Shown here in pieces: positions 1 through 59,068 of a stretch of DNA of 64,000 bases. The stretch comes from Lampris incognitus (lineage: Eukaryota; Chordata; Actinopteri; Lampriformes; Lampridae). The stretch lies in the NCBI RefSeq assembly GCF_029633865.1, contig NC_079211.1, positions 9,848,295 through 9,912,294 of the forward strand. Direction: 5' to 3'. A program made the translations under genes and the position numbers. Positions within the stretch are counted from its first letter, which is position 1. Every line of letters starts with the position of its first letter. Under the pieces are notes generated by a model that saw nothing but the letters and a program-made list of their open reading frames with translations, did not search any database and was not told where the DNA came from.

Positions 1-2035
1 CAGAGTGTACTAGTACGTGTACAATGTGCAGTACAGTTTAATACAAAATGGCTGGATTTATTTGATAGTGTTAAACATTCATTTGAATGACAGCCTGCAG
101 AAAGAAACTGTTTTTATATCTGGTTGTTTTGGGGTACAGTGCTCTGTATCGCCTACCAGACGGGAGGAGTTGGAACAGGTTGTGACCAGGGTGTGATGGG
201 TCTGCAGTGATATTGCCTGCCTGTTTCCTGGTTTTTGAGGTGTATAAGTCCTGAATGGAGGACAGGTTGGCACCAATGATTGTCTCTGCAGACTTAACTC
301 TCCATTGTAGTCTGTTCCTGTCCTGTTTGGCAGCAGATCCAAACCAGACAGTGATGGATGTGCAGAGGACAGACTGAATTATTGCAGCATAGAACTGAAT
401 CAACAGTTCCTGAGGCAGGTTGAATTTTTTGAGCTGGCAGAGAAAGTACATCCTCTGCTGGGCCTTTTTGATGATTGTGTTTATGTTGGATGCCCACTTT
501 AGGTCCTGGAAAATTGTGAAACCCAGAAATCTGTAAGTTTTCACTGAAGACACTGTGCTGCTGAGTATGGTGAAGGGGGGCAGTGTTGGGGGACTCCTCC
601 TGAAGTCCACTGTCATCTCCACTGTTTCGAGCGTGTTCAAATCCAGGTTATTACAGCCGCACCAGAGGGCCAGCTGATCAACCTCCTGTCTATACGCAAA
701 CTCGTCACCATCCCGGATAAGGCCAATGATGGTTGCGTCATCCAAAAACTTCAGGAGTTTAACAGACGGGTCACCTGAGGTGCAGTAATTTGTGTAGAGG
801 GTGAAAAGTAGAGGGGAAAGCAAGGTGCAGTAATTTGTGTAGAGGGTGAAAAGTAGAGGGGAAAGCACACATCCCTGGGGGGGCGCCCCTGCTTATTGTC
901 CAGGTGTTGGATGTGATTTTCCCCAGTCTCACTAGCTGCCTCCTGTCTGTCAGGAAGTTTTTAATCCACTGGCAGATGGGGGTTGGTACAGTGAGCCAGA
1001 TAAGTTTGGAGTTGAGGATATCTGGGACGATGGTGTTGAACGCTGAGCTGAAGTCTAAAAACAGGACCCTTGGGTATGTCCCTGGGGAGTCGAAGTGTCG
1101 GAAGATATAGTGCAATCCCTCGTTGAATGCATCATCCACTGACCCGTTTGCTTGGTAGGCAAACTGCAAGGGGTCGAGCAGGGGGTCTGTGATTTCCTTC
1201 GGGTGGGCCAACACCAGTATCTCAAAGGATTTCATGACCATAGACATTAGGACAATGGGCCTGTAGTCATTTAATCCCGTGACACAGGGTTTGGGGACTG
1301 GGATAGTGGAGCTCTTGAAGCAGGAGGGGACTTCACACAGTGCTAGTGATCTGTTGAAGATCTGTGTGAACATGGGAGCCAGCTGGTCAGCACAAACTTT
1401 AAGACAGGGGGGTGACACGCCATCGGGGCCTTGTGCCTTTCTGGTCTTCCGTCTCTGGAAGAGCTGGCGCACATCCTCAACACAGATCCTGAGTGCGAGT
1501 GGGGGTTTGGTGGGGAGGGTAGAGTGGCTGACAGGGAGTGCAGTTGGTTATGTAATGTGGCTGGAGAGGGTGAGGGGTGTGAAAGTTTGCTTTTCAAACC
1601 TGCAGTAAAACCCAATTAGGTCATCAGCCAGTTGATAGTTTCCTAGAGTCTGGAGGGATGGTCTCCTGTAGTTGGTGTCTTTCAAACCACTCCAGACTGA
1701 TGAGTCGTTGGCAGAAAAGCTGTTTTTCAACTTTTCAGAGTAGCACCTTTTTGCCACTCCAATCTCCTTTGTGAGTGCATTTCTGGTTTTGTTATACCGG
1801 ATCCTATCTTCACTCCTATAGGCTTCCTCTTTAGCCTGATGAAGCTGTCTGGAGTTTTGCTGTGAACCAGGTCTTATTGGTTAAAGGTACAGAAGGTTTT
1901 TGGTGGGCACACACGTCCTCAAAAGCTGATGTAAGTTCATCCAGGTCTGTAGATACAGCCTCAAAAATACTCAAGTCAGTGCAGTCGAGGCAGGCCTGGA
2001 GCTCCAGTTTTGAAAACATGTGACATTACCGGAAG
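1..2035 (-). mobile_element. decayed LINE, reverse-transcriptase half
   Basis: The minus strand encodes broken pieces of a non-LTR retrotransposon ORF2. From about 2019 down to 1548 come pre-RT segments. From 1472 to 880 the RT fingers/palm can be read: GPDGVSP, then NDYRPIVL, then LQFAYQANGSVDDAF, then FLDFSSAFNTIVPDIL. From 868 to 71 the thumb and C-terminus follow, with LLPSGRRYRALYPK near the end. The catalytic segment reads KLLKFLDDATIIG. The frame is broken between pieces, so it is dead. The motif set fits the Jockey/CR1/L2 group as seen in fish; I cannot fix the family. It lies in a calnexin intron on the same strand as the gene. Confidence 0.85.
778..867. repeat. 45-bp in-frame tandem duplication inside LINE RT
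   Basis: Two adjacent, essentially identical 45-bp units (778-822 and 823-867) duplicate 15 codons reading LLSPLLFTLYTNYCT on the minus strand, just before the RT catalytic motif. Confidence 0.9.
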
Positions 2036-20060: not shown

Positions 20061-20363
20061 GTCCGATTTGATATTTTACCGGGTTTTTTTTTTTAATCTT
20101 TAAACTCAGCGGCGATGAAAAAAATATACGTGAAAAAAATACCTGTGATCTTTTCAAAATTACCTCACGCTCAAAGCAAAACTGTTGGACGCCGTACAAG
20201 AGCGTTTTGCAGAGGACCCGTATTTAAAAGATCTCAAAGAAACCAGCATCTGTTTCTGAACGATCGGGATTTCACCCCTACCTAAAAAGACCCCGGGCCC
20301 GGTTTTTAAACTCTACATGTTGTCAAGATAAACACCCAGTTGAGATACTAGTGCCTTACATGT

Positions 20364-20502
20364 TGCAGCGAATTCGGGGGGGGCAACGCAACTACAGAAA
20401 GCTGCCGCGGACGGGAAGCGAACCCGTAACCCCCGCACCGCAGGAGACAGCGCTAACCGCTCGACTAAAGGCTCAGATCTTCTTATTCATGCACGCTACG
20501 AT
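20364..20502 (-). mobile_element. tRNA-bearing miniature LTR, copy 1
   Basis: On the plus strand it opens TGCAGCGAATTCGGGGG, carries the complement of a perfect T-arm (ACGGG-TTCGCTT-CCCGT on the minus strand) and of box A (TAGTCGAGCGG), and runs to CATGCACGCTACGAT. Possible 4-bp duplication ATGT (20360-20363 and 20503-20506). The right terminus is degraded and lacks the hairpin seen in the other copies. Confidence 0.65.
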
Positions 20503-20568
20503 ATGTTACGTTTACACTGTGTATGTTCTACACTGTTGATAGAGAGACACTGTGGAAAGTGCTAGACG

Positions 20569-20774
20569 CAGGGGTGTCAAACTCCAGGCCTCGAGGGCCG
20601 CAGTGTCTGCAGGTATTTGTTGCAACCGTGCACTACACCACCTGATTTAACTAATTAGCTCACTTCCTGGATCAAAGAGGGAAAGGAACTAGTTTGATCA
20701 GGTTGTGTAGTGCACGGTTGCAACAAATACCTGCAGACACTGCGGCCCTCGAGGCCTGGAGTTTGACACCCCTG
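20569..20774. mobile_element. foldback hAT MITE in the LINE
   Basis: A 206-bp element with long inverted arms, about 75 bp each, starting CAGGGGTGTCAAACTCCAGG and ending in its reverse complement. CAGGGGTGTCAAAC is a known hAT-Charlie-type terminus. Flanks are TGCTAGAC plus one extra base on the left and TGCTAGAG on the right (8-bp duplication, one change). Excision would restore LWKVLETYG. Confidence 0.9.
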
Positions 20775-20852
20775 TGCTAGAGACTTATGGCTGCCCCCAG
20801 AAACTGATCAGCATCATCAGACTTTTCCACGTTGATATGACAGGGAAAGTAT

Positions 20853-20988
20853 TGCAACCGGTTATTTTCTCGCCCGGTTGCGGGATTCGATACGAGGTGT
20901 ACTGCACCACAAGGCGACATCACTAACCGCTCGGCTAAAGGGTCAGACCCGTTAGCTAGGGGCTAACGTGTCTTATTAGTAGTTTACA
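20853..20988 (-). mobile_element. tRNA-bearing miniature LTR, copy 2 (solo)
   Basis: 136 bp, plus-strand ends TGCAACCGG...AGTTTACA, with perfect GTAT duplications (20849-20852, 20989-20992). On the minus strand: hairpin GTTAGC/GCTAAC-like, then GGGTC-T-GACCC, then TTTAGCCGAGCGGTTAG (perfect box A) and a box B-like ATCGAATCCCGC. It sits in the LINE codon run GKVS, which reads through if the element and one duplication are removed. No primer site or internal region follows. Confidence 0.88.
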
Positions 20989-21681
20989 GTATCAATTGGA
21001 GGAGACCTCAGCGATGCTTTCAACATCAAGCATGGAGTGAAGCAGGGGTGTGTGCTTGCGCCGACCCTATTCGCGTTATATCTCGCTGCAGTCCTAGAAA
21101 CAATGTCAGCCAACTTGAGGGGTGGCTTGTACATCAGGACCCGAACAGATGGAAACCGCTACAGTCTTGCGAGACTCAAGGCGTCTACCAAAACAACAGA
21201 ACTCTGTGTTCGAGAGCTTCTCTGTGTAGATGACTCAGCTCTGGTTGCCAGTGGTCCTGGAGAAATGCAAGAAATAGTAGACCGCTTCTCTTCAGCAGCT
21301 ACCCTCTGCGGCCTGAAAATCAACATCTCCAGACAGAGCTTCTGTACCAGCCTCTCCCTCAGAAAAGCCCCGAAGAAGGTCAGCCCAGTATTTTGGTTGA
21401 TGGAGCAACTCTGAAGACCACTGAGTGCTTTACCTACCTGGGCAGTGCTGTGACAGATATAAACTCCTCTGACTTAGAAGTGGACAGAAGAATCCAAGCG
21501 GCCGCAAACGACTTTGGTCCCACCATGACAGGCTGACAACAAAGATCAAGGTCTACAACACAGATGTTCTCCCGTCTCTATTATACTCCACCGAATGGAT
21601 GACCCTGTATCGCAAGCACATCAAGAAGCTCACCACCATACAGCTCCGTCATCTGCTGTGAATCAAATGGGAAGACAAGGT

Positions 21682-21763
21682 GCAGCATATCAGCTCCCTC
21701 ACGCCTCTGGGCGCACTCACTTCCGATGGCCTCACGGTCTCTCCATCCCACTTCTGACACCAA
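21682..21763 (-). mobile_element. miniature LTR element, internal segment 2 with tRNA-Leu(CAA) primer site
   Basis: Plus strand 21745-21762 reads ATCCCACTTCTGACACCA. This equals the 3' end of vertebrate tRNA-Leu(CAA) plus CCA, so on the minus strand it is a primer-binding site one base after LTR copy 3. The segment is about 82 bp with a purine-rich GGCGTGAGGGAGCTGA at its far end. The following LTR is not visible; the LINE resumes. Confidence 0.75.
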
Positions 21764-21893
21764 TGCAGCGAATTAATTTCCGCCCGCTGCGGGATTCGAT
21801 CACGCGTTGTACTGCACCACGAGGCGACATCGCTAACCGCTCGACTAAAGGGGGCCGATCCCTTGGCGTTCGGCCAATAAGTCGTCTTGTACA
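21764..21893 (-). mobile_element. tRNA-bearing miniature LTR, copy 3
   Basis: 130 bp, plus-strand ends TGCAGCGAATT...CTTGTACA. On the minus strand it carries hairpin TTGGC-cgaac-GCCAA, then box A TAGTCGAGCGGTTAGCG and box B-like GATCGAATCCCGC. It lies between internal segments 1 and 2, so it is the 3' LTR of one unit and the 5' LTR of the next. Confidence 0.8.
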
Positions 21894-21983
21894 GTAGTCA
21901 CCTCCTCCTATTCCCGCGCTCTGAAGAGACTTAGGAGGATCTGCAGGGCTCCGGACACTTTCGGATCCCACCGCTGCCACCAA
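21894..21983 (-). mobile_element. miniature LTR element, internal segment 1 with tRNA-Leu(AAG) primer site and polypurine tract
   Basis: 90 bp. Plus strand 21965-21982 reads ATCCCACCGCTGCCACCA, the 3' end of vertebrate tRNA-Leu(AAG type) plus CCA. On the minus strand this is an 18-nt primer-binding site one base after the LTR. At the other end GGGAATAGGAGGAGGTGA lies four bases before LTR copy 3, as a polypurine tract should. No reading frame fits in 90 bp. Confidence 0.82.
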
Positions 21984-22138
21984 TGTAACCGAGCAAATTT
22001 GGGGACAGCCGGGAACCGCCACAAGCCGGGACGCGAACCCGTGTTTTCTGCACCGCGGGCGACTACGTTAACCAGTCGACCAAAGGGTCCGACCCGTTAG
22101 CCAAGGGCTAGCGAGTCTATTTACCCGTGCATGTTACA
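21984..22138 (-). mobile_element. tRNA-bearing miniature LTR, copy 4
   Basis: 155 bp, ends TGTAACCGAG...GCATGTTACA on the plus strand. On the minus strand: hairpin GCTAGCC-ctt-GGCTAAC, GGGTC-G-GACCC, box A-like TTGGTCGACTGGTTAACG, then a perfect T-arm CGGG-TTCGCGT-CCCG. It differs strongly from copy 3 although both flank the same internal segment, so the unit is recombinant or chained. Confidence 0.85.
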
Positions 22139-22330
22139 ATACATTTTATTTGTGGGCGCCTTTCGGAGCACTCAAGGACACCTTACAGAACAGTTAACAA
22201 AAACCAAGCAGCCCTGTATCAGACAGCATAAGATCAACACAAAGCAGGGTATACAATAAAAAGTAAATGCAGCAGATAAGTATAAAATCCTCTTCAGCAC
22301 GGATTTGAAGGTTGAAAGAGAGTCATGGTG
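22139..22330 (-). mobile_element. L2-like LINE 3' fragment
   Basis: Shares GGGCGCCTTTC, GCACTCAAGGACACCTTACA and GACAATAAAAAGT words with the longer copy at 39772-40320. It lacks the coding part and is truncated. Confidence 0.65.
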
Positions 22331-22415
22331 CGTCTGTAACAGCATCTGTAACCAGGCATGTTGGCAATAATCAAAAATCCAGTTTAGACCGTTACTCTGC
22401 ACTGGAGGACGCTAG

Positions 22416-22552
22416 TGTAAACTACTAATAAGACACGTTAGCCCCCTAGCTAACGGGTCTGACCCTTTAGCCGAGCGGTTAGCGATGTTCGCCTTGTGGT
22501 GCAGTACACCCCGTATCGAATCCCGCACCGGGCAAGAAAATAACCGGTTACA
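22416..22552 (+). mobile_element. tRNA-bearing miniature LTR, copy 5
   Basis: 137 bp in forward orientation: TGTAAACTACTAATAAGACA, hairpin GTTAGC-cccct-AGCTAAC, GGGTC-T-GACCC, box A TTAGCCGAGCGGTTAGCG, box B-like GTATCGAATCCCGC, end AACCGGTTACA. Flanks CTAG and CTGT do not match, so this copy may be a recombination product. Confidence 0.82.
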
Positions 22553-23045
22553 CTGTTGTTTTTTTTGGACAATGAACTTCGCGAAGGAAATGATGCGACC
22601 AACACACGTCATAAATAGTGACATGACGCGCACGATCACGCGCAAATTACGAGACGGTCATGTTGACCGTCCATGGTCGTTTTAGGTAGATCTTATCGTA
22701 ACTTCTTCTTTTTTTGTGTGTGCGATTGATCCAAAACTCATTTTAATGCAAATATGTGCAATTTTAGGAGGATTCAGGGAGCGGCAGGTCTGTGTCTTTT
22801 CTTTTCTTTTTTTCGCAGTTATTAAACTTTTGAAAACCCCAAACGGCCATAATGACCGTCTTGGTCGTTAAAGCAGTAAAAACATTTATCTAACTGCTAT
22901 TGTATGTAGGTTTAATGACTAATTAGACTTAATGTCAGTCATGAAGGTGGTCCGTGGTTGTAGGCATGTGGGCAATCTGAATGAATGAATCCTTTGTTCC
23001 CTCAGCCCTGCATGTGGGTTAGCTATCGGATAGGTGAGCCATCGG

Positions 23046-23275
23046 TTAAGTCCATCCATCCACCCATCCATTATCCAACCTGCTTATCCTAATTATGGTC
23101 GCGGGATGCTGGAGCCTATCCCAGCAGTCATTGGGCGGCAGGCGAGGAAACACCCTGGGCAGGCAGCCAGTCCATCACAGGGCCCACACACATTCACACC
23201 TGGGGACAATTTAGTACGGCTGATTCACCTTTGGACAACCCCGGGGTTCGAACCCAGGACCTTCTTGCTGTGAGG
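23046..23275 (+). repeat. (CATC)n-headed short interspersed repeat
   Basis: A CCATCCATCC run, then ATTATCCAACCTGCTTATCC, GATGCTGGAGCCTATCCCAG, CACCTGGGGACAATTTAGTA. This family recurs at 31743, 31979, 39308, 45824, 48309 and 52266, and is probably the 3' end of a LINE or a SINE. Confidence 0.8.
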
Positions 23276-23301
23276 TGACTGCGCTAAGTCAGTTTTATTT
23301 G

Positions 23302-23437
23302 TGTAACCGGTTATTTTCTTGCCCGGTGCGGGATTCGATACGGGGTGTACTGCACCACAAGGCGACATCCCTAACCGCTCGGCTAAAGGGTCAGACCCGT
23401 TAGCTAGGGGGCTAACGTGTCTTATTAGTAGTTTACA
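23302..23437 (-). mobile_element. tRNA-bearing miniature LTR, copy 6 (solo)
   Basis: 136 bp, plus-strand ends TGTAACCGG...AGTTTACA, flanked by TTTG on both sides (23298-23301, 23438-23441). Removing it and one TTTG restores TTTTATTTGTATGGCCCAAT, a common fish repeat string. It differs from copy 2 at only a handful of positions. Confidence 0.9.
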
Positions 23438-24294
23438 TTTGTATGGCCCAATATCACAGATTCAAAATTTACCACAGGGGGCTTTACACTAATACAACAT
23501 CCTGTCTTTAGACCCTCGCATCAGATAAGGAGCAACTCTAAAAAACAAAAACAAAAATTGGAGAAAAACAGGAAGAAACTTCAGGGAGGGCAACAGAAGA
23601 GGGGGGGGGGATCTCTCGCCCAAGACAGACAGACGTGCAATGGATGTTGTGTGTACACAACTGACAAAATACACTGAAAAAGGATCATCGAATTATGATG
23701 GAATTGTAAGATGTATGATGAGAAGCAGGCCAAGCAGTGTCCAGATGCCACCGGAACGGCCTAAAGTGAGGTTGAGGTTGGGGTTAGGTAGAGGTTAAGT
23801 CAGGTTAGGTTAAGTTTAGGTAGGTTCAGTGAAATAGGGTCGAGGGAGGGCACGTGGACACGCTCCCATCTGAATATGTGCCATATGACAGGCATCTTGG
23901 CTCTTTGCATTAAGTCAGATCATGGTGTAGTGGGCCTTAGTCATCTTTCAGTAGCCTCCAACCATTGTCAGTAATATGGTTTATGCACATCGCTCAGGCC
24001 GTGCTCTTTCCAATAACCAAAATCACGTAACAGCATTTGTCCATGAGAAACAGTTGATTCTACATGCAGTTGTACATGGGAGGACAAACCATTCTCCATA
24101 TTAGTAAACGCCTGTCCTTCTGCAACTTTTATTACATGTGACAGATTAAAATACAATTTGGGGCGGGGGCTATTAAAGTTTAAAATATTCATTTGCAAAA
24201 CTAGTGAGAGGTTATTAAGAATTAAAATGTCCCTTTGCAGGAAAAAAAAAATCATTAAATATCATGTATTGCTGTGAAGGTATTAAGCAGGATC

Positions 24295-24352
24295 CTGTGC
24301 AAGGGGCGTCGTTCCGGCTACGCGGGTTCGATTCCCGGCTGCCCCTGAATTC
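24295..24352 (+). mobile_element. tRNA-bearing miniature LTR, 3' fragment
   Basis: Only the T-arm (CGGG-TTCGATT-CCCG, box B GGTTCGATTCC perfect) and the end CCTGAATTCGCCGCA remain, matching the 3' half of copy 7. Confidence 0.65.
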
Positions 24353-24424
24353 GCCGCAAACGCAAATCCAATTACACGCGGGAGGGAGCCAAAACTCATG
24401 ATGGGCTTGACCATAAATTGGTAT

Positions 24425-24575
24425 TGTAACGTGCATGGATGAGAAGACACGCTGGCCGCTGGCCGGCGGGTCCGACCCTTTAGTCAAGCGGTTAGCGAGG
24501 TCTCCTGCGGTGCGGGCGATACGGGTTCGCGTCCCGGCCGTGGCAGTTCCTGTGGTTGCCCCCGAATTCGCTACA
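24425..24575 (+). mobile_element. tRNA-bearing miniature LTR, copy 7 (solo)
   Basis: 151 bp, TGTAACGTGCATGGATGAGA...CCCGAATTCGCTACA, flanked by perfect GTAT duplications (24421-24424, 24576-24579). Inside: hairpin CTGGCC-gct-GGCCGG, GGGTC-C-GACCC, box A-like TTAGTCAAGCGGTTAGCG, T-arm CGGG-TTCGCGT-CCCG. No primer site follows, so it is a solo LTR. Confidence 0.9.
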
Positions 24576-25407
24576 GTATTAACAACGAAGTCAAACGCCC
24601 GAGGGGGACGTACAAGAAAAGGAAGGGGGAAGCTTTGGGGTGAGCAGGTCCACCCTCGCCCTCCGTCTTCTCTCTTCCCCCATCGAGGTCTCCTTCCTAC
24701 CGCCGGCCATTCATGGCTCGCGGGAAAAACCGGCTCCATCCTTTGTTCGGATTCGGATCTTTGTTCCCCGTAAGCTTAGTGATCTACCCCTCCATTGACG
24801 CACGGTATCATGACGACACGCTGAACCGAGCTGGCTTGAACCGAGGTGAACTCGACTGGAGATGAAGGTTGTTCTGCTGCGGGGCTTCGCCGTCGGATGC
24901 CCCGGGACGAGCCTGTCGGATCCTGTAAATATTTAAAAACGTTTAAAAGCGTGCAACACTTTAAATCTCTCGAGGGTTTGGACGTGTTTCCTCTCGCATC
25001 TCTCCATATTAAGTAGGCCAGCAGGGAGCCACCCCCTCCGGGCTGCGGAGGTATGCAGAATATGCGAGACCCTGACCCACGTGACCGGGGACCGCCAGGA
25101 CGAGCCTCCTGAAGCCCAGCCTTCCCTGCTGCTGTACACAACCGTGTGCAGCTACTTACCTACTGGCACGGAGGACCTTGTGGTTCTCATGTTGACACAG
25201 AAGACCTCACAGCGACTTTTCTGTGCAGTGATTCTCTAACCGAACCTCGGGTCACTCACGTCGAAGGAAACGCTGGACTTTCTTCGAAATGAGCAGCTGT
25301 GGGAAAACAACTGAACCCTTTGAAAAAACCGCCTTTGTCAACATGCAATCAAAGATTTAGAAGTTTGTTAACAGTTGCATGGAACCAGCTGACGTAATCC
25401 CCCCCCA

Positions 25408-34430: not shown

Positions 34431-37400
34431 AGATGGCAGCGCAAACTCACGTTTGCAGCGGCCTCACCCAGTACCATCCATGCTAGTGTCTCGGTCCATG
34501 TCTGTGTCTAAGTTTGTGTCTTTGTTTAATGGCTGGGAGAGCTGACGTTGAATTGACTGGGGGAGCTTGGTCTGCCGCGTCCGGTGGGCCCAGGGACCAC
34601 TGCCCTGCCTAGATCTGTGGCCAAGGAGGAGGCACCGAGGGCGGTCTGACAGGAGATGGAAACGGGGCAGGCTAAGCTAACTGCTAGCCCATGCAGACCA
34701 GCAGTTCAGACAGTCATCCTGGTTGGCATTTGTTCGCTTGGACAGTGATTCTTTTTTCTTGCTTAGTTTGGATATATGTGTTCTTAGTTTGAATATATGT
34801 GTTCTAGCTTGGATATACGTGTTCTTAGTTTGGATGTATGTGTTCTTAGTTTGGATATATGTGTTCTTAGTTTGGATATATGTGTTCTTAGTTTGGATGT
34901 ATGTGTTCTAGTTTGGATGTATGTGTTCTTAGTTTGGATATATGTGTTCTTAGTTTGGATATATGTGTTCTTAGTTTGGATATATGTGTTCTTAGTTTGG
35001 ATGTATGTGTTCTAGTTTGGATATACGTGTTCTAGTTTGAATACGTGTTCTTAGTTTGGATATATGTGTTCTTAGTGTGGATATATGTGTTCTAGCTTGG
35101 ATATATGTGTTCTAGTTTGAATACGTGTTCTTAGTTTGGATATATGTGTTCTTAGTGTGGATATATGTGTTCTAGTTTGGATACATGTGTTCTTAGTTAG
35201 GACATATGCGTTCTAGTTTGGATATATATGTTCTAGTTTGGATATATGCGTTCTTAGTTTAGATATATGTGTTCTTAGTTTGGATATACGTGTTCTTAGT
35301 TTGGATATATGTGTTCTTAGTTTGGATATATGTGTTCTTAGTTTGGATATACGTGTTCTTAGTTTGAATATATGTGTTCTAGTTTGGATATATGCGTTCT
35401 AGTTTGGATACATGTGTTCTTAGTTTGGATATATGTGTTCTTAGTTTGGATATACGTGTTCTTAGTTTGGATATATGTGTTCTTAGTTTGGATATACGTG
35501 TTCTTAGTTTGGATATATGTGTTCTTAGTTTGGATATACGTGTTCTTAGTTTGGATACATGTGTTCTAGTTTGGATATATGTATGTGTTCTTAGTTTGAA
35601 TATATGAGTTCTTAGTTTGGATAAATGTGTTCTTAGTTTGGATACATGTGTTCTAGTTTGGATATATGTATGTGTTCTTAGTTTGAATATATGAGTTCAT
35701 AGTTTGGATAAATGTGTTCTTAGTTTGGATACATGTGTTCTTAGTTTGGATATATGTGTTCTTAGTTTGGATACATGTGTTCTTAGTTTGGATATGTGTT
35801 CTAGTTTAGATATATGTGTTCTTAGTTTGGATATATGTGTTCTAGTTTAGATATATGTGTTCTTAGTTTGGATATATGTGTTCTTAGTTTGAATATATGT
35901 GTTCTAGTTTGGATACATGTGTTCTAGTTTGGATACATGTGTTCTTAGTTTGGATATATGTGTTCTAAGTTTGGATACATGCGTTCTTAGTTTGGATATA
36001 TGCGTTCTAGTTTGGATATATGCGTTCTTAGTTTGGATATACGTGTTCTTAGTTTGAATATATGTGTTCTTAGTTTGGATATATGTGTTCTTAGTTCGGA
36101 TATACGTGTTCTAGTTTGGATATATGCGTTCTAGTTTGGATACATGTGTTCTTAGTTTGGACATACGTGTTCTTAGTTTGGATATACGTGTTCTTAGTTT
36201 GAATATATGTGTTCTAGTTTGGATATATGTGTTCTAGTTTGGATACATGTGTTCTTAGTTTGGATATATGTGTTCTTAGTTTGGATATATGTGTTCTTAG
36301 TTTGGATATATGTGTTCTTAGTTTGGATATATGTGTTCTTAGTTTGGATGTATGTGTTCTAGTTTGGATATACGTGTTCTAGTTTGAATACGTGTTCTTA
36401 GTTTGGATATATGTGTTCTTAGTGTGGATATATGTGTTCTAGCTTGGATATATGTGTTCTAGTTTGAATACGTGTTCTTAGTTTGGATATATGTGTTCTT
36501 AGTGTGGATATATGTGTTCTAGTTTGGATACATGTGTTCTTAGTTAGGACATATGCGTTCTAGTTTGGATATATATGTTCTAGTTTGGATATATGCGTTC
36601 TTAGTTTAGATATATGTGTTCTTAGTTTGGATATACGTGTTCTTAGTTTGGATATATGTGTTCTTAGTTTGGATATATGTGTTCTTAGTTTGGATATACG
36701 TGTTCTTAGTTTGAATATATGTGTTCTAGTTTGGATATATGCGTTCTAGTTTGGATACATGTGTTCTTAGTTTGGATATATGTGTTCTTAGTTTGGATAT
36801 ACGTGTTCTTAGTTTGGATATATGTGTTCTTAGTTTGGATATACGTGTTCTTAGTTTGGATATATGTGTTCTTAGTTTGGATATACGTGTTCTTAGTTTG
36901 GATACATGTGTTCTAGTTTGGATATATGTATGTGTTCTTAGTTTGAATATATGAGTTCTTAGTTTGGATAAATGTGTTCTTAGTTTGGATACATGTGTTC
37001 TAGTTTGGATATATGTATGTGTTCTTAGTTTGAATATATGAGTTCATAGTTTGGATAAATGTGTTCTTAGTTTGGATACATGTGTTCTTAGTTTGGATAT
37101 ATGTGTTCTTAGTTTGGATACATGTGTTCTTAGTTTGGATATGTGTTCTAGTTTAGATATATGTGTTCTTAGTTTGGATATATGTGTTCTAGTTTAGATA
37201 TATGTGTTCTTAGTTTGGATATATGTGTTCTTAGTTTGAATATATGTGTTCTAGTTTGGATACATGTGTTCTAGTTTGGATACATGTGTTCTTAGTTTGG
37301 ATATATGTGTTCTAAGTTTGGATACATGTGTTCTTAGTTTGGATATATGCGTTCTAGTTTGGATATATGCGTTCTTAGTTTGGATATACGTGTTCTTAGT

Positions 37401-38425
37401 TTGAATATATGTGTTCTTAGTTTGGATATATGTGTTCTTAGTTCGGATATACGTGTTCTAGTTTGGATATATGCGTTCTAGTTTGGATACATGTGTTCTT
37501 AGTTTGGACATACGTGTTCTTAGTTTGGATATACGTGTTCTTAGTTTGAATATATGTGTTCTAGTTTGGATATATGTGTTCTAGTTTGGATACATGTGTT
37601 CTTAGTTTGGATATATGTGTTCTTAGTTTGGATACATGTGTTTTAGTTTGGATATATGTATGTGTTCTTAGTTTGAATATATAAGTTCTTAGTTTGGATA
37701 AATGTGTTCTTAGTTTGGATATATGTGTTCTTAGTTTGGATACATGTGTTCTTAGTTTGGATATATGTGTTCTTAGTTTGGATATGTGTGTTCTAGTTTG
37801 GATATATGTGTTCTTAGTTTGGATATATGTGTTCTTAGCTTGGATATATGTGTTCTTAGTTTGGATATATGTGTTCTAGTTTGGATACAAGTGTTCTTAG
37901 TTTGGATATATGTGTTCTAGTTTAGATATATGTGTTCTTAGTTTGGATATATGTGTTCTTAGTTTGGATATATGTGTTCTTAGTTTGAATATATGTGTTC
38001 TAGTTTGGATATATGTGTTCTAGTTTGGATACATGTGTTCTTAGTTTGGATACATGTGTTCTTAGTCTGGACATATGTGTTCTAGTTTGGATATATGTGT
38101 TCTTAGTTTGGATATATGTGTTCTTAGTTTGAATATATGTGTTCTAGTTTGGATATATGTGTTCTAGTTTGGATACATGTGTTCTTAGTTTGGATACATG
38201 TGTTCTTAGTCTGGACATATGTGTTCTAGTTTGGATATATGTGTTCTTAGTTTGGATATATGTGTTCTAGTTTGGATATATGTGTTCCTGTAGTTTTTGG
38301 ATATGTGTTTTTGTCTTTGTGTTGCACTGCTGTGAGCTGGGGGAAACGATATTTCATTTAACTTCTTGTACACAAGTTCATTAAGTGAAATGACAAATAA
38401 AGTGTTCCTGATTCCTGATGTAGAT
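34430..38425 (+). mobile_element. retroelement-like unit hosting the satellite array
   Basis: The array is bracketed by non-repetitive ends. The left is GATGGCAGCGCAAACTCACG followed by GC-rich leader-like text. The right is GTTGCACTGCTGTGAGCTGG, AAATGACAAATAAAGTG and TTCCTGATTCCTGATG, which looks like a LINE 3' end with AATAAA. It could be one non-autonomous element whose middle expanded. Boundaries and family are inferred. Confidence 0.5.
34760..38290 (+). repeat. 20/21-bp satellite with 1347-bp higher-order duplication
   Basis: About 170 units of TTAGTTTGGATATATGTGTTC and variants (TACGTG, GAATAT, one-base-shorter CTAG form). Variant order at 35001-36280 is repeated at 36348-37630 with constant offset 1347, almost without change; one difference is ACATGCGTTC near 35990 against ACATGTGTTC near 37325. 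The Cys-Val-Leu-rich open frames here are repeat artefacts. Confidence 0.95.

Positions 38426-48949: not shown

Positions 48950-49011
<62 letters not shown>
48950..49011. repeat. (TA)n microsatellite
   Basis: About 30 TA units leading directly into the AT-rich minisatellite. Confidence 0.95.
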
Positions 49012-49016
<5 letters not shown>

Positions 49017-50598
49017 CCTACATCTCTTTTGTATATAAATATAACCTACATCTCTTTTTTATATATAAATATAACCTACATGTCTTTTTAATATATAAAT
49101 ATAACCTACATCTCCTTTTCATATATAAAGATAACCTACATGTCTTTTTATATATGGATATAACCTACATCTATTTTTTATATTTGAATATAACTTACAT
49201 CTCTTTTTTATATATAAATATAACCTACATCTCTTTTTTATATATAAATATAACCTACATCTCTTTTTTATATATAAATATAACCTAAATCTTTTTTATA
49301 TATAACTATAACCTACATCTCTTTTTTATATATAAATATAACCTACATCTCTTTTATATATAAATATAACCTACATCTCTTTTTATATATAAATATAACC
49401 TACAACTCTTTTTTATATATAAATATAACCTACATCTCTTTTTTATATATAAATATAACCTACATGTCTTTTTATATATATAAATATATCCTACATCTCT
49501 TTTTTATATATAAATATAACCTGCATCTATTTTTATATTTGAATATAACTTACATCTGTTTTATTTATAAATATAACCTACATGTCTTTTTTATATATAA
49601 ATATAACCTACATGTATTTTTTATATATAAATATAACCTACATGTCTTTTTATATATATAAATATATCCTACATGTCTTTTTTATATATAAATATAACCT
49701 GCATCTATTTTTTATATTTGAATATAACTTACATCTTTTTTATATATAAATATAACCTACATGTCTTTTTATATATAAATATAACCTACATGTCTTTTTT
49801 ATATATAAATATAACCTACATGTCTTTTTATATATATAAATATATCCTACATCTCTTTTTTATACATAAATATAACCTACGTCTATTTTTTTATTTGAAT
49901 ATAACTTACATCTCTTTTTTATATATAAATATAACCTACATCTTTTTTATATATAAATATAACCTACATCTCTTTTTTATATATAAATATAACCTACATC
50001 TCTTTTTTATATATAAATATAACCTACATCTCTTTTTTATATATAAATATAACCTACAACTCTTTTTTATATAAAAATATAAACTACATCTCTTTTTCAT
50101 ATATAAATATAACCTACATCTCTTTTATATATAAATATAACCTACAACTATTTTTTATATATAAATATAACCTACATCTCTTTTTTATATAAAAATATAA
50201 ACTACATCTCTTTTTCATATATAAATATAACCTACATCTCTTTTATATATAAATATAACCTACATCTTTTTCATATATAAATATAACCTACATCTTTTTT
50301 ATATATAAATATAACCTACAACTCTTTTTTATATATAAATATAACCTACATCTCTTTTTATATATAAATATAACCTACATCTTTTTTATATATAAATATA
50401 ACCTACATCTCTTTTTTATATATAAATATAACCTACATCTCTTTTTCATATATAAATATAACCTACATCTCTTTTTCATATATAAATATAACCTACATCT
50501 CTTTTTTTATATATACATATAACCTACATCTCTTTTTCATATGTAAATATAACCTACATCTCTTTTTCATATATATAAATATAACCTACATCTCTTTA
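49012..50598. repeat. AT-rich minisatellite, 27-30-bp units
   Basis: About 55 units of ATATATAAATATAACCTACA plus TCTCTTTTT with length changes in the T run. Higher-order blocks marked by ATATTTGAATATAACTTACA recur at 49175, 49535, 49715 and 49885. Tyr/Ile/Leu-rich frames are artefacts. Confidence 0.95.
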
Positions 50599-53929: not shown

Positions 53930-55700
53930 GTGTGTTTGGGTAGTTCGCGGTTTAATTTTGCTCCGTTATGAAGTCCCCGAGGACAACGGAAAGTGAATCC
54001 GTGTCTTTTTGTTCCGAGCCGGTAATCCGGTCAGCCGGGGTTTGCAGTGTGCCACTCACGCCGGCCTGGGGTGGGATGTAAACGCCAACCAGGACCAAGG
54101 ATGAAAACTCCCACGGCGAGTAAAACGGCTCACCGTTTTTGAACAGTGAGTCCAAGTCTGGGCTGCAGTATTCACTTAAGACCGTGACATCCCTACTCTC
54201 CACCCTTCGTTCATGTAGCAGCACATTGCTCCACCCTTCACTCACGTAGCAGCACTTTTCTCCGCCCTTCACTCACGTAGCGGCACTTTTCTCTGCCCTT
54301 CATTCCCGTAGCAGCACATTTCTCCACCCTTCATTCATGTAGCAGCACATTTCTCCACCCTTCGGTCACATAGCAGCACATTTCTCCACCCTTCATTCAC
54401 GTAGCAGCACATTTCTCCGCCCTTCACTCACGTAGCAGTACTTTTCTCCACCCTTCGTTCACGTAGCAGCACATTTCTCCACCCTTCGTTCACGTAGTAG
54501 CACATTTCTCCGCCCTTCACTCACGTAGCAGTACTTTTCTCTGCCCTTCATTCACGTAGCAGCACATTTCTCCACCCTTCACTCACGTAGCAGTACTTTT
54601 CTCCACCCTTCGTTCACGTAGCAGCACATTTCTCCGCCCTTCGTTCACGTAGCAGCACATTTCTCCACCCTTCACTCACGTAGCAGTACTTTTCTGCGCC
54701 CTTCTTTCACGTAGCAGCACATTTCTCCGCCCTTCGTTCACGTAGCAGCACATTTCTCCACCCTTCACTCACGTAGCAGTACTTTTCTGCGCCCTTCTTT
54801 CACGTAGCAGCACATTTCTCCACCCTTCACTCACGTAGCAGTACTTTCTCTGCCCTTCACTCACGTAGCAGCACATTTCTCCGCCCTTCATTCACGTAGC
54901 AGCACATTTCTCCACCTTGCACTCACGTAGCAGTACTTTTCTCCGCCCTTCGTTCACGTAGCAGCACATTTCTCCACCCTTCGTTCACGTAGCAGCACAT
55001 TTCTCCACCCTTCACTCACGTAGCAGCACATTTCTCCGCCCTTCACTCACGTAGCAGCACATTTCTCCGCCCTTCGTTCATGTAGCAGCACATTTCTCCA
55101 CCCTTCACTCACGTAGCAGTACTTTTCTCCACCCTTCTTTCACGTAGCAGCACATTTCTCCACCCTTCGTTCACGTAGCAGCACATTTCTCCACCCATCA
55201 CTCACGTAGCAGCACTTTTCTGCGCCCTTCTTTCACATAGCAGCACGTTTCTCCACCCTTCACTCACGTAGCAGCACATATCTCCGCCCTTCACTCACGT
55301 AGTAGCACATTTCTCCGCCCTTCGTTCACATTGCAGCACATTTCTCCACCCTCCGCTTTCCCCACCGGCACCGTTACGCGGTCCATTTAGTGTGGGTGGA
55401 GAGCTGGCAGATGTAGCCTGCCGATGGGGGCGGCTTCGCCGAGCCAGGTTTCAGTGAAACCAGGGGCAGGAGAACAGGCCAAGTCCCCGGTCGTCCCGTT
55501 GACACGCAGCCGGTGGATTCCGCTGGGCACCGGGCGGGGATTCGCCAGGCGAGCGCGGATCACAATCCCCCGCCGTCGGAGCCTCACCGGCACACTGGCC
55601 CGCTTCCCCCGTTCCGGGTTTGGGAAAACCGATGAGAAACTGATCTGGGGTTAACTGGCTGATGTTCAGCAGCTCTCTCCCCTGGTGAACGTGACCGGGT
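53930..55700 (-). mobile_element. decayed LINE endonuclease domain split by a minisatellite
   Basis: On the minus strand, 55593-55376 reads VRLRRRGIVIRARLANP, GFTETWLGEAAPIG, LHLPALHPH, MDRVTVPVGKAEGG. After the minisatellite, 54190-53952 reads DVTVLSEYCSPDLDSLFKNG, EPFYSPWEFSSLVLVGVYIP, PQAGVSG, LGDF. TETWL, C-SPDLE, FYSPREF, GVYIPPQA and LGDFN are the APE-type endonuclease landmarks of fish LINEs. It could be the same family as the RT half at 1-2035. Confidence 0.85.
54195..55365. repeat. 31-bp minisatellite inside LINE endonuclease
   Basis: About 37 units of CACGTAGCAGCACATTTCTC plus CACCCTTCGTT with variants (CACTC, GTACTTTTC, CGCCC). The minus-strand reading YVNEGW matches the LINE motif expected at this exact place in the endonuclease. 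Confidence 0.93.
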
Positions 55701-58360: not shown

Positions 58361-59068
58361 CCCCCCCGCTTTTTCTCCCGAATTGTGTCTGGCCAATTAC
58401 CTCGCTCATCTAAACCATCTCGGTTGCTGCTCCACCCCCTCTGCCGACCCGGGGAGGGCTGCAGACTACCACATGCCTCCTCCAATACACGTGGAGTCGC
58501 CAGCCGCTTCTTTTCACCTGACAGTGAGGAGTTTCACCAGGGGGACGTAGTGATCCGGGGAGGGCTGCAGACTACCACATGCCTCCTCCAATACACGTGG
58601 AGTCGCCAGCCGCTTCTTTTCACCTGACAGTGAGGAGTTTCACCAGGGGGACGTAGTGATCCGGGGAGGGCTGCAGACTACCACATGCCTCCTCCAATAC
58701 ACGTGGAGTCGCCAGCCGCTTCTTTTCACCTGACAGTGAGGAGTTTCACCAGGGGGACATAGTGATCCGGGGAGGGCTGCAGACTACCACACGCCTCCTC
58801 CCATACATGTGGAGTCGCCAGCCGCTTCTTTTCACCTGACAGTGAGGAATTTCACCAGGGGGACGTAGTGATCCGGGGAGGGCTGCAGACCACCACATGC
58901 CTCCTCCCATACATGTGGAGTCGCCAGCCACTTCTTTTCACCTGACAGTGAGGAGTTTCACCAGGGGGACGTAGTGCGTGGGAGGATCACGCCATTCCCC
59001 CCAGTTCCTCCTCCCCACCGAACAGGCGCACCGACTGACCAGGGGAGGCGCTAGTGCAGCGACCAGGG
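58361..59068 (-). mobile_element. tRNA-head SINE with internal 5x106-bp tandem repeat
   Basis: Tail TTTCTCCCGAATTGTGTCTG at the left; body continues to GGCGCTAGTGCAGCGACCAG; head missing. The segment GATCCGGGGAGGGCTGCAGA to GGGGGACGTAGT is present five times. Confidence 0.92.
58446..58975. repeat. 106-bp tandem repeat, five units
   Basis: Units start at 58446, 58552, 58658, 58764 and 58870, all exactly 106 bp. Units 1-3 share CAATACACGTGG; units 4-5 have CCATACATGTGG. Confidence 0.97.

Follow-up and report, generated by a model that had tools for sequence, protein, structure and literature searches.

Miniature retroelements of the Helenus kind with tRNA-like motifs in their terminal repeats in the genome of the fish Lampris incognitus

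We analysed a window of 64,000 nucleotides from Lampris incognitus (RefSeq assembly GCF_029633865.1, contig NC_079211.1, positions 9,848,295 to 9,912,294 of the forward strand), which contains a cluster of small repeats at 20364-24575. Seven copies (c1 to c7), each 130-155 bp long and each beginning with TG and ending with CA, lie there together with one fragment near 24270-24362, as a first-pass annotation of the same DNA had claimed (Table 1). Perfect 4-bp target-site duplications (TSDs), also reported in that annotation, flank three of the seven (c2, c6, and c7). The flanks of c1 differ by one mismatch as judged by eye, and no 4-bp duplication was found at the flanks of c3, c4, and c5. We conclude, with a probability of roughly 95%, that these repeats are the long terminal repeats (LTRs) and interior pieces of non-autonomous terminal-repeat retrotransposons in miniature (TRIMs) of the kind named Helenus. 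At least three of the window copies (c2, c6, and c7) are solo LTRs with duplications.

Copies c2, c5, and c6 are mutually 97-99% alike, and c7, c1, and c4 form looser groups. The body of c3 aligns to subfamily A with 83% identity over 99 bp, and its 3' tip is unlike A by eye; the fragment aligns to c7 with 65% identity over 89 aligned bases. The T-arm CGGG-TTCGCGT-CCCG that had been read in part of the copies is indeed present in c4 and c7. Copy c2 interrupts the reading frame of a long interspersed element (LINE), which by eye resumes across the insertion (flanks GGGAAAGTAT and CAATTGGAGG) once the insert and one GTAT are removed. Open LINE-like reading frames occur in the window at 71-1547 (minus strand) and 20983-21414 (plus strand), the LINE of the second being the one interrupted by c2; we take their motifs to be reverse-transcriptase-like.

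Table 1. Repeat copies, interior pieces, and associated features in the window
Feature	Position	Strand	Description
LTR copy c1, nearest subfamily B (c7)	20364-20516	-	153 bp; TG...CA; flanks ACAG/ACAT
Solo LTR c2, subfamily A	20853-20988	-	Exact TSD GTAT; interrupts LINE reading frame
TSD GTAT of c2	20849-20852; partner copy 20989-20992		Exact
Type B interior fragment after c3	21684-21763	-	One base, then primer site TGGTGTCAGAAGTGGGAT (21745-21762)
LTR copy c3	21764-21893	-	Body nearest subfamily A; no TSD
Type A interior between c4 and c3	21894-21983	-	One base, then primer site TGGTGGCAGCGGTGGGAT (21965-21982); purine-rich end AGGAGGAGGTGACTAC
LTR copy c4, subfamily C	21984-22138	-	T-arm CGGGTTCGCGTCCCG; no TSD
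LTR copy c5, subfamily A	22416-22552	+	No TSD
Solo LTR c6, subfamily A	23302-23437	-	Exact TSD TTTG
Fragment like 3' half of B-like LTR	24270-24362	+	T-arm CGGGTTCGATTCCCG
Solo LTR c7, subfamily B	24425-24575	+	Exact TSD GTAT

The box-A pattern TTTAGYCGAGCGGTTAG, with up to three mismatches allowed, has six matches in the window compared to 0.10 expected from shuffles, and all six lie inside copies (c1, c2, c3, c5, c6, and c7). The first-pass annotation had placed a box A in each copy, which holds for these six, whereas c4 is not among the matches. Primer sites of 18 nucleotides for leucine tRNAs, described there as lying one base past two copies, are found behind c3 and c4 and recur genome-wide; 0.23 and 0.05 chance matches, respectively, are expected for the two at up to three mismatches. 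Because the patterns themselves came from the window, these figures show only that the matches are not scattered. Published tRNA-Leu primers and recurrence across the host genome served as independent tests.

The host genome searched comprises 1.48 Gb, and the loci denoted below by L numbers are pieces of it, either 10-kb samples or fetched matches. Only the best candidates were scored, namely the best 40 of 3198 first-look candidates for subfamily A and the best 40 of 2613 for the c7 LTR. A complete unit of 371 bp lies at L026:5640-6010, where LTRs of 131 and 135 bp enclose an interior of 105 bp between the flanks CTAA and CTAT. With this unit as the query, the 40 scored candidates (query included) align over 365-371 of 371 bp, and the 39 non-query matches show 91-92% identity, besides two short secondary matches; the full length of the alignments is partly a selection effect, because only the best candidates were scored. 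Twenty of the 39 others were fetched, and every one is a complete unit with LTR, primer-binding site, interior, polypurine tract, and second LTR, the arrangement that the first-pass annotation had anticipated. Their length is 371-377 bp, and the primer site begins one base 3' of the first LTR in all 20, exact over 20 bases in 17 and variant in L034, L042, and L051. Likewise, all 20 carry the purine-rich stretch CGGGGAGGGTGACGAC 5' of the second LTR, identical in 14 and variant in six. The two LTRs of an element are 91.9-98.5% identical (median 97.0), and c2 matches the first LTRs of these elements at 96.3% in the median and 97.8% at best. Subfamily A thus consists of an LTR of ~135 bp, one base, an 18-nt primer site, an interior of 102-107 bp in total, and a second LTR; the interior is too short to encode a mobilising protein.

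The 4-bp TSDs of these 20 elements are exact in 15, carry one mismatch in three, and are lacking in two, compared to a mean of 1.3 matches and a maximum of 7 in 10,000 random re-pairings of the flanks. The left-hand TSD copy reads NTAN in 12 of the 20. Element L051 has no TSD; its left flank is GACGAC, the end of the stretch that precedes the second LTR, and because this sequence adjoins the first LTR on the left, L051 looks like part of a tandem. The remains of a tandem were also observed at L009:1-300, in the order purine tract, LTR, primer site, 47-bp interior, purine tract, and LTR start. Across 33 loci of the host's own genome, the primer site has five exact matches, four directly behind such an LTR (two of them the window's own) and the fifth, at L012, between a short stub that resembles an LTR and an A interior with LTR. 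Three of the 14 10-kb loci not picked by match (L019, L020, and L022-L033) contain a piece of the element, one of them a short fragment, which corresponds to a density of roughly 20 per Mb with a very wide error.

A second subfamily, B, was recovered with the c7 LTR. The scored candidates (window copy included) align over 149 or more of the 151 bases, and 20 of the 39 others were fetched, equivalent to 19 independent insertions, since L059 and L071 have the same flanks and derive from a single, duplicated insertion. Nine of the 20 carry the primer site TGGTGTCAGAAGTGGGAT one base past the LTR, one is preceded by a purine tract, and ten are solo. Six of the nine reach the start of a second LTR after an interior of 117-121 bp (L073 by eye), two are interrupted by other sequence, and one could not be followed further. 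With LTRs of ~151-157 bp and a purine stretch of the GAAGGAGGGGGGTAG type, the whole element is estimated at ~430 bp. Among the ten solo LTRs, the TSD is exact in four and has one mismatch in five, and that of L062 is exact only if the last LTR base has mutated. Mature tRNAs end in CCA. The type B primer site equals TGG followed by the first 15 bases of the tRNA-Leu reverse primers given in the available portions of PMC5377358 and, for fly, PMC11495624.

The one-mismatch TSDs of B-like copies show a recurrent form, in that the 5' copy ends in G in five of seven: ATAG/ATAT in three cases, ATAG/ATAC in one, and ACAG/ACAT in one (L056, L057, L060, L012:2094-2243, and c1), with L068 and L069 differing. 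The base that precedes the LTR in the purine-tract context is likewise G, and the G-ending 5' copies possibly reflect an end nucleotide left unremoved at integration.

LTRs and interiors of different subfamilies are combined in the window, where c4 (subfamily C), a type A interior, c3, and a type B interior follow one another. The interior after c4 is 92% identical over 65 bp to the interior of one complete A element (score 48.5 to A versus 14.0 to B), and that after c3 is 92% identical over 73 bp to the interior of one B copy (61.0 to B versus 18.5 to A). The two interior types are related to each other, with 80% identity over 93 bp. The locus L006 combines a C-type LTR, an 85% match to c4 over 144 bp, with a type B interior behind it, and at L072 a B-type 5' LTR (93%) occurs with a partial 3' LTR that matches C better (85%) than B (80%). 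Such mosaics would be accounted for by template switching or by recombination within tandems.

Both subfamilies share a 7-bp hairpin, AAGCGCG-N4-CGCGCTT as folded computationally, just 5' of the purine-rich stretch; it was seen at L026 and L012 (A) and at L058, L059, L071, and L072 (B), with variants of one or two bases at L063 and L073. It is perhaps a packaging or pairing signal held in common with a helper.

The structure suggests the following replication cycle. RNA polymerase III (Pol III) would start a transcript at the tRNA-like box A and box B of the 5' LTR and run through the element, a leucine tRNA would prime reverse transcription, and an autonomous LTR retrotransposon would supply the enzymes and integrase, probably one of the Gypsy type, for which Kojima argues in the case of animal Helenus (PMC10886601). 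Recombination between LTRs would then leave solo LTRs. Transcription was considered in a survey of 17 LTRs, some partial and some near-identical. Relaxed box A- and box B-like motifs stand 40-46 bp apart in all 17, and AATAAA, ATTAAA, and TATAAA are absent from all 17. On the arrangement of these motifs, we consider it fairly probable that Pol III uses the box A and box B of the LTR.

Runs of four T are absent from all 20 complete A elements and all 17 surveyed LTRs. In 11 representative LTRs, zero TTTT were found versus 3.0 expected, a result seen in 1.6% of shuffles of what are related copies. Depletion of TTTT as support for Pol III was nevertheless dropped, because the copies are related and single copies lack TTTT by chance about half the time. 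A source tRNA for the LTR was also sought among 13 tRNA sequences; the best match varies by copy, and no isotype is claimed.

Several points weigh against the reading given here. The first-pass annotation had over-read the tRNA likeness: ARAGORN called no tRNA, and Rfam at its cut-offs gave no tRNA and no match in the window. In a permissive Rfam scan of 20300-24620, the only matches were 18 nt of T-arm in the fragment (24321-24338), matched by the tmRNA model with E 0.014, one unlisted match of the same clan, and a hairpin match. The strict box A TRGCNNAGYGG occurs in 7 of the 17 LTRs, as does G-TTCG--TCC, and the strict box B GGTTCGANTCC in none of them. Among five window copies, conservation is 0.91 in box A versus 0.74 in the remainder of the LTR, a value equalled by 12.5% of windows, and 0.84 in box B, equalled by 34%. 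The absence of TTTT carries little weight, because its probability for a single copy per subfamily is ~0.6 and 0.5. With regard to structure, the A-type stretch CGGGGAGGGTGACGAC is interrupted and is not a clean purine tract; in B elements, reading extended as far as the start of a second LTR, in 6 of 20; and the assignment of the type A primer site to tRNA-Leu(AAG) is presumptive. Finally, no autonomous partner turned up, where no search aimed at a mobilising Gypsy element was made.

In one alternative, which rivals the transcription step only, the elements are ordinary TRIMs transcribed by RNA polymerase II and the tRNA-like stretch is an inert relic. The partial tRNA likeness, the strict box counts, and the unexceptional box conservation speak for it. 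However, the relaxed boxes keep the spacing of tRNA genes in all 17 LTRs, across several diverged subfamilies, and the same LTRs contain neither TATAAA nor a poly(A) signal. We regard transcription by RNA polymerase II as rather unlikely, though it is the strongest of the alternatives.

The first-pass annotation had held the repeats to be LTRs and not short interspersed elements (SINEs) or miniature inverted-repeat transposable elements (MITEs), and this was borne out by the complete units, the constant 4-bp TSDs, and the primer sites at many loci; among the fetched copies, none of the contrary patterns that it had named was found, namely LTRs that never pair, long variable TSDs, and primer sites confined to the window locus. 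A reading as tRNA-derived SINEs, mobilised by target-primed reverse transcription with the machinery of a LINE, might be proposed from the box A- and box B-like motifs, the one T-arm, and a stretch at window 23230-23300 that we take to be SINE-like and tRNA-derived. But this proposal, which predicts single units with long variable TSDs, is refuted by units that have two LTRs and, between them, a primer site and a purine-rich stretch, by the TG...CA ends, and by the constant 4-bp TSDs, and it is now scarcely credible. The SINE-like stretch shows no clear similarity to the LTRs (z of -0.2, 2.0, and 3.1 for c6, c7, and c4), and its role as a donor of their tRNA-like sequence is not supported by these values. 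Integrase-bearing Ginger-like DNA transposons have TGT...ACA ends and 4-bp duplications, and some copies here end in TGTAA...TTACA with 4-bp duplications, but MITEs of such a transposon are refuted with equal force by the direct repeats enclosing primer site and purine-rich stretch in the 20 complete A elements and by inverted identity that, by eye, spans only a few bases at the tips.

Beyond the assignment to Helenus-type TRIMs, a more specific proposal would be that two Helenus subfamilies, each with its own leucine primer site, coexist, swap LTR and interior modules, and follow a read-through replication cycle unlike the terminated one of Cassandra. On this proposal, Pol III transcripts must pass the 3' LTR into flanking DNA, since there is no T4 stop. 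We hold this combination to be doubtful.

The window contains further features. A near-palindromic MITE at 20569-20774 has 88-nt arms that are 95% complementary, ends CAGGGGTGTC, and tgctaga on both sides by eye, and we assume it to be hAT-like; 39 other places in the genome, those scored out of 3371 first-look candidates, match it at 95-98% identity. A weak Rfam match to MIR2863 inside it (44.6 of 94 bits) probably reflects its hairpin shape. Minisatellite arrays lie at 34762-38296 (unit of 21 bp), 49004-50597 (30 bp), 54197-55352 (31 bp), and 58449-58976 (106 bp). Two globin exons of the host match haemoglobin chains, with 9tpz, 3bcq, 1out, and 1spg among the best single-stretch matches; for the alpha globin exon, the top-ranked matches are engineered double chains, each matched over two stretches. 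The chains 3bcq, 1out, and 1spg are from fish, which points to a teleost host.

The first-pass annotation had hoped for a novel vertebrate analogue of the plant element Cassandra, but tRNA-bearing TRIMs had already been named Helenus by Kojima (2024, Biology 13:119, PMC10886601), the only report of tRNA-bearing LTRs found in open-licence literature as judged by title; a search of IMG/VR viral contigs for the LTR end plus primer site gave 0 matches. According to the available portion of that paper, Helenus is defined by tRNA-derived LTRs, a primer-binding site, and a polypurine tract, has a 4-bp TSD in animals, and measures 311-1263 bp. Vertebrate families, which include LTR-11_DR, Helenus-1_CaAu, and LTR1_LCh, use His, Leu, or Lys primers and occur in zebrafish and other Ostariophysi, sturgeon, paddlefish, and coelacanth (two families); LTR-11_DR of zebrafish has 5575 LTRs, 2618 interiors, and tandem arrays. 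The elements described here have two LTRs around a short interior, box A and box B in relaxed form, primer site, purine-rich stretch, and 4-bp TSD. They resemble Helenus, including LTR-11_DR, in these described features, the comparison being one of features and not of sequence, and also in a leucine primer, solo LTRs, tandems, and high copy number (thousands for LTR-11_DR and thousands of first-look candidates here), and their lengths of 371-377 bp (A) and an estimated ~430 bp (B) both lie inside the Helenus range. That no full tRNA was called is in line with the statement there that Helenus mostly encodes no functional tRNA. They differ in that two leucine-primer subfamilies and mosaics occur in one fish genome, which the available portion of PMC10886601 does not mention. 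Novelty is limited to two subfamilies that differ in their leucine primers, the mosaics between them, and the absence of any T4 run seen inside. Starting from raw sequence, the analysis arrived independently at a kind of element that was named only in 2024, and the structural evidence for it is strong. Helenus-type elements distribute tRNA-like promoters over genomes, where the annotation of SINEs and tRNAs can be misled by them. With the mosaics and with no Pol III stop in sight, how Helenus RNA is synthesised and primed becomes a question that can be tested in fish cells.

Cassandra, as described in the same portion of PMC10886601, carries 5S rRNA sequence in its LTR, and its transcript ends in the 3' LTR. 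The elements of L. incognitus share with it the small LTR design and, probably, a Pol III-type promoter in the LTRs. In contrast to Cassandra, they show no Rfam match in the window and no TTTT in the 20 complete A elements, and 5S rRNA gave no match at E values up to 10 in 20300-24620, so that a 5S-derived LTR was not encountered. Ajax of nemerteans, in the same source, differs by its 5S-derived promoter and 5-bp TSD, but, like the elements here, is a TRIM that has a leucine primer site, and its promoter is of Pol III type, as is probable here.

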